Shown: piece after piece, positions 13,576 to 15,885 of the stretch
Numbering within the stretch: the stretch's first letter is position 1
Layout of the letters: each line of letters opens with the position of its first letter
Origin: Sphingorhabdus sp. 109
GTDB lineage: Bacteria > Pseudomonadota > Alphaproteobacteria > Sphingomonadales > Sphingomonadaceae
Assembly: GCF_902506555.1 (NCBI RefSeq)
Contig: NZ_LR732707.1
Span: forward strand, 1,202,001 to 1,266,000
Length of the DNA stretch: 64,000 bases
Direction of reading: 5' to 3'
Notes under the pieces: model-generated
The model's input: the letters and a program-made list of their open reading frames with translations, nothing else
Told to the model about the DNA's origin: nothing
Database searches by the model: none
Program-made: the position numbers and the translations under genes

Positions 13576-15885
13576 CTACTCTGCCGCCGCTACAATCTCC
13601 GCCCAGGCCGCCTCGTCAATCACTTCAATCCCAAGCTCTGCCGCTTTCTTGGCTTTCGACCCCGCCCCCGGCCCCGCAACCACCAGATCGGTTTTCGCGC
13701 TGACCGACCCCGAAGCCTTGGCGCCCAGAGCCTCGGCCTGCGCCTTGGCTTCGTCGCGGCTCATGGTTTCCAGCTTGCCGGTGAAGACCACGGTCTTGCC
13801 GGCCACCGCGCTGTCGCGGGTTTCGACAATATAGTCCGGCGGAGACACCTCGCTCAGCAGATCTTCCCAGACCGTGACATTATGCGGTTCGTGGAAGAAA
13901 TCCGCCAGCGCCTGTGCGACCGTCGGGCCGACGCCGTCGATCGAGGTGATTTCCGCCCAGGCCGCATCACCGGCTTCGGTTCCGGTCGTCTCGCTCGCAG
14001 CCTCTCCGTTCGTGTCGAGCGAAGTCGAGACACCCGCAGTTCCGCCATCCCGGTCTCTCGACTGCGCTCGAGACGAACGGTATTTCTCCGATTCCTGCGC
14101 AGCCTCAGCTACCTCCCGCAAACGCGGCAGGGTCCGGAAATTCTTCAACAGATCCTTCGCCGTCACCGTGCCGATATGGCGGATTCCCAGTCCGAACAGC
14201 AGACGGGCCGCGTCGGGTGCGCGCTTCTTTTCCACAGCCGCCAACAGATTATCCACAGACTTGTCCTGCCAGCCTTCGCGCGCCAATATTTCGGCGCGAT
14301 GCTCATGCAGGCGGAAAATATCGGCCGGGCTTTCGAGCCAGCCCGCCTCGATAAATTCGGCGATGCTCTTTTCGCCCAGCCCGTCGATATCCAGCGCCAC
14401 CCGCGAAACAAAATGGACCAGTCGCTGGAAGCGCTGCGCCGGGCAGATCAGCCCGCCGGTGCAGCGGACATCGACCTCGCCCTCCTCGGCGACGGCTTCG
14501 CTGCCGCATTTTGGGCAGTGATCCGGGAAATCATAGGGCTCGCGTTCCTCGTCGCGGGTCAGATTCTCGACCACTTGCGGGATCACGTCCCCGGCCCGCT
14601 GGATCACCACCCGGTCACCCGGACGCACGCCAAGCCGTTCGACCTCGTCGCGGTTGTGCAGCGTCACGTTGGAAACCACCACGCCACCCACGGTTACGGC
14701 CTTCAGACGCCCCACCGGAGTCAGCTTGCCGGTACGCCCGACCTGGATATCAATACTCTCCAGCGTCGTCTGCGCCTGCTCGGCCGGGAATTTATGCGCC
14801 AAGGCCCAGCGCGGCGCCTTGGCGACAAAGCCGAGCCGCTGCTGCCAGTCGAGCCGGTCAACCTTGTAGACCACGCCATCGATATCATAAGGCAGGTCCG
14901 CCCGCTCCGCCTCGATATGCCGATAATGGGCCAGCATGTCGTCGAGCGATTCAAAGCGCCTGACCAGCGGTGAAACCGGCACGCCCCAGCTTTCGATCGC
15001 GTTCATGACCTCAAACGCCGTGTCGCCCGGCACTTCGCTGTGCACACCCCAGCCATGCGCCCAGAATTTTAGCGGGCGCTTCGCCGTAATATTCGCGTCT
15101 TTCTGCCGCAGCGACCCGGCGGCGGCATTACGCGGATTGGCGAACTGGCGGATTTTTTCCGGATCGAAATCAACCCCCTTGGCCTCGGCATCGGCCCTGC
15201 CTTCGTCCATCAGCCGCTCGTTGAGCCCGGCAAAATCGGCCTTGGCCATGTAGACCTCGCCACGGATTTCGAACAGGTCTGGGACGGGATGGGAAGCGTG
15301 CTCCTGCGAAGGCAGGAGCCCATCGCCCGCTCGCGCCCCGGCCGCACCCTCGGGAGATGTATCCCCGCCTTCGCGGGGATACAACCGCTCCGGAATATCC
15401 GAAATCATCCGCACATTGGCGGTCACATCCTCGCCAACCTGCCCGTCGCCGCGCGTCGCGGCCAGCACGAGTTCGCCCTTCTCGTAGCGCAACGAACAGG
15501 ACAGCCCGTCAATCTTGTCCTCCGCCGTCACCGCCACCGGCGCGCCCTCGTCCAGATTCAAGAACCGTCGCACCCGGGCCAGCCATTCGGCAATATCCGC
15601 GTCGGAAAAACCGTTATCGAGGCTCATCATACGCTGTTCGTGCTTCACCTTGGACAAGGGCGAAGCCGCCACCGCCGCGCCGACCAGCTTGTTCGGACTG
15701 TCCTCCCGCACCAGATGCGGAAACGCCTGTTCCAGTTCGTTGTTCCGCCGCACCAGCGCATCATAATCCGCGTCGGAAATCTCCGGCGTGTCTTCGGCGT
15801 GATAGAGCTTGTTATGATGCGCAATCTTGCGCGCCAGACGCATCAGTTCGTTGGCGGCATCGGCTTCGGAGATTGATTCTGACAT
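13576..15885 (-). CDS. ligA: NAD-dependent DNA ligase with two in-frame repeat insertions
   Basis: Seals nicks in DNA using NAD+ (769 aa; the family is usually about 670-720). Domains in order: Ia (1-60) with [15 protein letters not shown], adenylation domain with the catalytic lysine K124 in AEDKIDG, OB fold (about 380-450), zinc finger (four Cys between 457 and 481), helix-hairpin-helix domain, and BRCT (about 692-769). Two stretches do not belong to the family: residues about 169-203 (RVs low complexity, encoded by 15277-15381) and about 602-628 (14002-14082). Both are encoded by palindromic repeats and keep the frame. The first lies between DIPERL and [10 protein letters not shown], the second between the HhH domain motifs. 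The enzyme is essential, so both must be tolerated. Confidence 0.95.
14006..14080. repeat. Palindromic repeat inside ligA (second insertion)
   Basis: Inverted repeat with 25-base arms (14006-14030 and 14056-14080) that differ at only two positions; the arms begin CCGTTCGTGTCGAGC. The 75-base element encodes about 25 residues of ligA in frame. Flanking protein (EAAQESEKY before, [16 protein letters not shown] after) is ordinary LigA sequence. Confidence 0.85.
15301..15382. repeat. Palindromic repeat inside ligA (first insertion)
   Basis: Two hairpins: CTCCTGC-GAAG-GCAGGAG (15301-15318) and a 10-base stem with CTTC loop (GTATCCCCGC at 15359-15368, complement at 15373-15382). Both lie in the ligA frame. 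The first hairpin with its following CCATC matches the intergenic copy at 58095 apart from paired base changes. Confidence 0.85.

Follow-up and report, generated by a model that had tools for sequence, protein, structure and literature searches.

The ligA gene of Sphingorhabdus sp. 109 carries a palindromic repeat that is read through in frame. This raises the question of how such DNA comes to lie in the gene of an essential enzyme, and whether one and the same site has been filled once or many times. The window—the whole stretch analyzed here, 64,000 nucleotides of contig NZ_LR732707.1—contains ligA at 13576–15885 on the minus strand. The gene encodes an NAD+-dependent DNA ligase of 769 aa, is open throughout, and matches the structure 2owo (E 7e-167). 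A search of relatives and of the own genome (G000) gave a single full ligA match in the latter; its other match is a family B repeat peptide at the place of the insert in trmD.

Repeat elements in ligA

The element at 15298–15382, here called family A, has a length of 85 bp, consists of two hairpin units in opposite orientation, and lies in frame in ligA. Read directly from the sequence, it begins with GT at 15298, continues with a stem-loop (stem 8 bp, loop 4 bases), the inner part, and a second, inverted stem-loop, and ends with AC at 15382. Unit 1 (15300–15319) features the stem GCTCCTGC / GCAGGAGC and unit 2 (15361–15380) the stem ATCCCCGC / GCGGGGAT, each with a 4-base loop. The original prediction had recognized both hairpins but set their bounds at 15301–15318 and 15359–15382. 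The inner part contains an inverted repeat that is imperfect and reads CATCTCCC...GGGCGATGG in minus-strand letters. Inspection by eye revealed no target-site duplication.

The element encodes residues ~169–201 of the ligase, after DIPERL (Leu168), where empty relatives have ~4 residues. The added segment that had been predicted after DIPERL is real, with a net gain of 29 residues. The insert place corresponds to residues ~161–164 of Escherichia coli LigA (2owo), in the adenylation domain shortly upstream of the VRGEV motif. In an AlphaFold model of the window LigA (mean pLDDT 83.3, pTM 0.54), residues 173–195 have a pLDDT below 50 between ten-residue blocks at 92—mild support for a disordered insert loop, as the conserved stretches 68–83 and 353–367 are likewise below 50.

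A second element, which the original prediction did not contain, lies in frame in the same gene at 14006–14080 (site 2, residues ~602–627). It belongs to a palindrome class other than A, termed family B, with the ends CCGTTCG...CGAACGG. Residues 619–627 of the model also have a pLDDT below 50. A known RNA family was considered for the family A insert and rejected: an Rfam scan of 13500–15950 gave nothing above chance, its lone match reached 13 bits, where the gathering score is 40.

Family A copies in the genome

Family A matches the own genome 25 times at E ≤ 1, in 22 distinct places made up of ligA, 19 good copies, and 2 weak ones; the best E-values are 5e-58 (ligA itself), 3e-11, and 1e-9. 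Its 14-base core pattern occurs 36 times, 17 of them in forward and 19 in reverse orientation; the pattern written backwards gives no match. Ten +/− pairs with a spacing of 60–128 bases are found among these 36 matches, and extra pairs with a second, ligA-like stem type were recognized by eye. As judged by eye from flanks and frames, the copies lie mostly outside conserved genes; the one in pheT lies inside. Within the window, a single unit with CCATCTCC tail occupies 58095–58114, 9 bases past the stop (58083–58085) of a plus-strand open frame. It had been described as nearly identical to the sequence after the first ligA hairpin; it is similar but not near-identical, and it represents half an element.

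Stem bases differ as pairs, as had been predicted. This was measured on 25 distinct own-genome units, which were picked for their loop and tail, irrespective of whether the outer six bases pair. The outer six stem pairs are standard in 92% of cases against a mean of 78.7% and a maximum of 86% in 1000 shuffles, and compensated cells number 26 against a mean of 8.3 and a maximum of 18—both beyond all shuffles, which ignore the relatedness of the copies. Together with direct reading of the sequence and with the empty sites described below, the genome copies bear out the original claim: 15298–15382 holds, in frame within ligA, one copy of a REP-dimer-like repeat with two hairpins that is dispersed in the genome.

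One further family A element of the own genome (C2:937369–937444, L052) lies directly before bioB, identified by eye, and is open in frame with it. It may encode an N-terminal extension or may merely lie upstream.

The ligA site across relatives

LigA was sampled from relatives (60 genomes, 59 with a match, 30 loci used), from the family (199 genomes, 193 with a match, 30 loci used), and from named genomes (best 80 loci). The site could be read in 137 of these 140 loci (missing are L015, L022, and L095) and yields 119 distinct sphingomonad site sequences: 78 of 33 aa, 17 of 34–40 aa, and 24 of 52–75 aa. Thus, 95 of 119 have a loop of 33–40 residues and 24 a long insert, all of the latter being strong palindromes according to predicted structures judged by eye. 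All 23 genomes of the same order in which ligA was matched (G036–G059 without G055) look empty by the spacing of aligned pieces, which ranges from a 12-base overlap to a 15-base gap, with G046 represented by one shorter alignment. The predicted empty sites are therefore found and are clean, but the segment is not confined to this genome, and the filled sites hold several repeat families. A conserved peptide lacking the palindrome in most homologues, the pattern that would speak against an insertion, was looked for in the LigA set and not found.

Clustering of the 24 inserts at ≥65% identity gives 9 groups (5 at 60%, 10 at 70%, 12 at 75%), with 61% as the maximum in 300 shuffled comparisons. 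Family A is found in L001, L002, and L007; A′ in L008, L010, L014, and L118; B in L004, L005, L006, L009, and L013, i.e., in five species; and C in L003 and L011. C/T-rich D types occur in Parasphingorhabdus, Novosphingobium, Altererythrobacter, and other genera. A and A′ have a common outer hairpin pattern. B and C, which both end in CCGTTCG/CGAACGG, merge once the threshold is lowered to 60%, where shuffled sequences have their ceiling, and may be distantly related. Since A and A′ share this pattern and B and C are possibly related, the sequences are counted as at least three unrelated classes.

In a LigA tree made by a quick method, with the insert columns removed and the possible remnant L181 left out, the presence of an insert needs 13 changes and its family 17. 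With the doubtful L181 included, presence needs 14 changes, 13 of which are forced by starred branches. One supported (starred) clade of seven species holds C, B, and A at the ligA site. The flanks of unlike inserts can be very similar: over the 30 codons to each side, identity between L001 (A) and L003 (C) reaches 92.2 and 93.3%, and the insert boundaries of unlike families match to a few codons. Filled L012 and empty L018 are 96.7% identical over 30 codons on the right and 83.3% on the left. The ligA site is thus empty in most relatives examined and is occupied elsewhere in the genus and family by at least three palindrome classes.

These data bear on the idea of one ancient insertion per site that was inherited and diverged past recognition, an origin favored for Rickettsia RPE-4, RPE-6, and RPE-7 in the accessible part of PMC3767692. 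For ligA, this origin is very unlikely: the A and B inserts match separate repeat families, each with its own copies elsewhere; the inserts fall into 9 clusters at ≥65% identity; and most sphingomonad LigA sequences as well as the 23 same-order genomes look empty, near relatives such as L018 included. What it does capture is that several species of the genus resemble one another in both family and spacer—A in three loci, B in five species—and because of this likeness, part of the ligA pattern reflects descent or exchange of one insertion.

Loops of LigA that carry inserts

Across 711 core columns of 119 LigA proteins, extra segments of at least 10 residues occur at site 1, at site 2, and once at column 418 (L082); two further places are N-terminal and include segments from an upstream reading frame. 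Site 2 comprises core columns 578–583. Column 581 within it has a 10-residue segment in 33 rows, which is ordinary sequence and no repeat; other genera have other repeats at this site. Length variation of LigA is limited to few loops, and because of this limitation tolerance alone predicts that inserts are concentrated.

This concentration is the point at which targeted insertion has to be weighed, i.e., elements that recognize the site DNA or the resident palindrome and actively swap palindromes. Boundaries of unlike families that agree to few codons are what targeting would produce, as are the nearly identical flanks of L001 and L003 around different elements. The limited number of variable loops and, mildly, the predicted disorder of the insert speak for tolerance instead, given that conserved stretches also fall below a pLDDT of 50. 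In addition, flank tracts shared with species of the same family—at pheT and for family B in ligA—point to homologous exchange. Targeted insertion is accordingly unlikely. A broader variant holds that essential information-processing proteins have docking ports, a small number of loops where palindromes are preferentially inserted or swapped for unrelated ones and where at least three selfish classes compete family-wide; we regard it as unlikely.

Three further observations concern ligA. Core columns 215–216 form a two-state loop with a length difference of 9 residues, with an insertion in 53 rows and many deletions, in which no repeat insert was seen. At site 2, a further repeat whose reading is PLHHPADGPPPR or nearly so recurs outside the genus, in L091, L123, L139, L152, and L182. 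The ligA match spans 3349 bases in L170 (Qipengyuania flava) and 2668 bases in L127 (Novosphingobium sp. UBA6722), with open frames of only 743 and 688 aa, respectively; a duplicated or separated piece of ligA may lie beside the gene in both.

Other genes with in-frame elements

Search of the genome for the repeat and a check of reading frames, as proposed by the original prediction, yielded in-frame elements beyond ligA. In the own genome, pheT holds family A, trmD holds family B with C-like sequence behind it, and both glyS and a terminase-like gene hold family B; the genes were named by reading the translations and by comparison with relatives. The coding copies derive from element matches and peptide searches, and open frames of more than 250 residues in the peptide search are mostly ligA, trmD, and pheT. 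The counts that follow leave out the order-level pheT loci L215 and L217, the trmD locus L245, and artefactual short trmD strings of some outgroup loci. PheT is filled in 4 of 21 genus loci, always with A or A-like elements, next to empty sites. TrmD is filled in 9 of 18 genus loci by B, C, both, or D type, and glyS in 5 of 19 by B or C; one more glyS locus, L261, has four extra residues. The trmD site is likewise reused, by the B, C, and D types, and the glyS site by B or C, which are possibly distant kin.

The codon phase of family B is 1 in trmD and at the second ligA site, 2 in glyS, and 0 in the terminase-like gene. All three codon phases are used; therefore, the DNA and not the peptide is what spreads. 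A functional role, in which the insert is a selected peptide or an mRNA hairpin regulating the ligase or its expression, is highly improbable against this background. The frames of filled species in the relatives search do stay open through the inserts, and the affected genes serve replication and translation. Yet peptides and frames differ at the same sites, near relatives do without an insert, and the Rfam scan of 13500–15950 gave no match above chance.

The terminase-like gene resembles a terminase large subunit by eye, from a prophage or gene transfer agent, and carries its family B element in frame at C2:3157152–3157225 (L058). Family B also lies inside an open frame of 182–191 aa in five genus genomes (L296, L304, L309, G001:C123:3113, and G011:C4:303449); these genomes may share an in-frame insert in a further gene.

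Comparison with known repeat systems

Rickettsia palindromic elements (RPEs) are described in the accessible part of PMC3767692 as dispersed palindromes of 68–192 bases (Table 1) lying in frame in conserved genes, pheT included. Coding copies are located at solvent-exposed places (PMC3767692 and PMC10969869, the accessible portions of each). The same portion of the former, a study of R. japonica, finds that every Rickettsia orthologue has an insertion at the sites aligned; it raises the alternative of hotspot and common origin, leans to common origin, and keeps hotspots possible. In sphingomonads, by contrast, unlike families alternate with clean empty sites in close relatives, whereas the Rickettsia orthologues aligned there are all filled. 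What the two have in common, and what holds for Wolbachia elements as well, are in-frame palindromes in conserved genes and dispersed copies. The resemblance to RPEs put forward in the original prediction is supported by dispersed copies, empty relatives, and in-frame copies in pheT, trmD, and glyS. The host is a sphingomonad and not a Rickettsia, and family A is not filed as an RPE.

A second comparison concerns repeats that include copies in 'S. alaskensis' and 'E. lithoralis', which we take to be Sphingopyxis and Erythrobacter. CGTC-tagged REPs of alpha-Proteobacteria carry the tag CGTC, often TGTC or CCTC (Di Nocera et al. 2013, PMC3733652, accessible part). They feature an 8–9-bp stem with A-T pairs first, a loop of 4–5 bases, and an unpaired CCA tail. 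According to the same portion of PMC3733652, they occur as pairs of opposite orientation, have no dedicated transposase, are reported from sphingomonads, and lie inside tRNA synthetase genes of the two species named; recB of two Xanthomonas species has different REPs at about one site. The expectation that such elements are rarely reported in sphingomonads needs correction in that intragenic alpha-proteobacterial REPs, including sphingomonad ones, are already published in this source.

Family A resembles these repeats in its 8-bp stem, its opposite-orientation pairs, its intragenic copies, and the lack of a transposase in a search with PF01797 only. The 33 family A units compared were selected by CCATC as tail and by a search pattern that sets the loop at 4 bases, a loop length they consequently all have. 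None of the 33 has CGTC, TGTC, or CCTC at the tag position, where 32 have GT; one unit outside this set, in L049, carries TGTC. A stem that starts with A and T, paired, is likewise seen in 0 of 33, although one of the ligA units (15361–15380) has both. Of the two ligA units, one has the tail CCA and the other ACA. Because tag and AT-started stem are absent (0/33), family A is not filed under the CGTC-tagged REPs. Alternation of several repeat classes at one codon with empty sites is not described in the accessible part of PMC3733652.

The kind of element is hence already known, from Rickettsia palindromic elements and intragenic REP dimers. Apparently new is the reuse of one codon site by unrelated repeat families, which the accessible part of PMC3767692 leaves open for Rickettsia. 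Among the matches listed in an open-access literature search, there was no report of sphingomonads in which one codon is occupied in turn by unlike palindromic families, PMC3733652 and PMC3767692 being the nearest as far as their accessible parts go. The sphingomonad data favor repeated independent entry followed by exchange over a common origin. Distinct dispersed families, surviving empty sites, and named deposited strains (e.g., P. marina DSM 22363) make the hotspot reading directly testable here.

A proposed course of entry, tolerance, and exchange

The likely explanation is that palindromes entered tolerated loops repeatedly and independently and were then exchanged by recombination. Small palindromic elements would insert at many places, in this genome with no Y1/RAYT found. 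Selection would spare only those coding copies that keep the frame in a few floppy loops, and the same loops would be refilled repeatedly—a tolerance filter and not a target signal. Homologous recombination over short tracts of the conserved flanks would then swap versions of the site among related species, whether empty, filled, or filled with another repeat, and such swaps would make one palindrome seem to replace another. The encoded peptide would be a by-product. Certain protein loops thus seem to be reusable parking places for hairpin DNA, and the case shows how short segments that are probably disordered come to enter essential enzymes again and again.

Signs of exchange are visible in the flanks. 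Left of the pheT insert, at bases −105 to −60, the near relative G009 matches at 44 of 45 positions and G014—more distant, with the same insert—at 30 of 45; in the last 45 bases, this is reversed to 29 of 45 for G009 and 38 of 45 for G014. The probability of 29 or fewer matches is 9e-7 at an expected 91% and 5e-4 at 85%, for a stretch picked after seeing the data. This foreign-looking tract beside the insert suggests import by recombination. In ligA, pairs of the same family have a left-flank identity that is higher by 6.3 points over 15 codons, and 1 of 5000 permutations that ignore phylogeny reaches this value, as is also the case for the excess at 30 codons. The right flank, with the tree again ignored, shows a weak effect over 30 codons (P 0.013) and nothing over 15 (P 0.28). 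The left signal stems from B and A′; non-sister pairs of A (L001/L002–L007), C (L003–L011), and D (L012–L016) show no excess over the left 15 codons. Taken together, the flanks suggest that recombination, and not transposition alone, spreads such elements.

Import of the ligA family A insert from the L007 lineage was considered and rejected: L001 and L007 are 80.0% identical in the left 15 codons and 85.7% far from the site. In glyS, G000 and G001 are both filled and agree in insert and spacer but not in a longer flank tract, and for this reason the pattern may be due to loss in sister species or to re-insertion.

A REPIN is formed by two inverted REP units that make up one small unit. The double hairpin of family A is alike in having two inverted units and differs in that no Y1/RAYT gene was found in this genome: a PF01797 search gave 0 matches in G000, with 5 of 14 control genomes positive. 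A Y1 match is present in 13 of 32 genus genomes. At eight Y1 loci (L186–L193), which include IS200-like genes and one RAYT-like gene (L193), all named by eye, a crude pattern scan for repeats gave only one short B-like motif, which lies inside the Y1 match of L191 and is probably due to chance. RAYT-driven REPINs were rejected, as the own genome gave no PF01797 match and the scan of L186–L193 gave only the motif in L191. Independent of the palindromes, near-identical Y1 genes, IS200-like by eye, with near-identical flanks occur in L187, L188, L189, and L190 (G011, G015, G025, and G029), one copy being split; this Y1 element has perhaps been moving recently in the four species.
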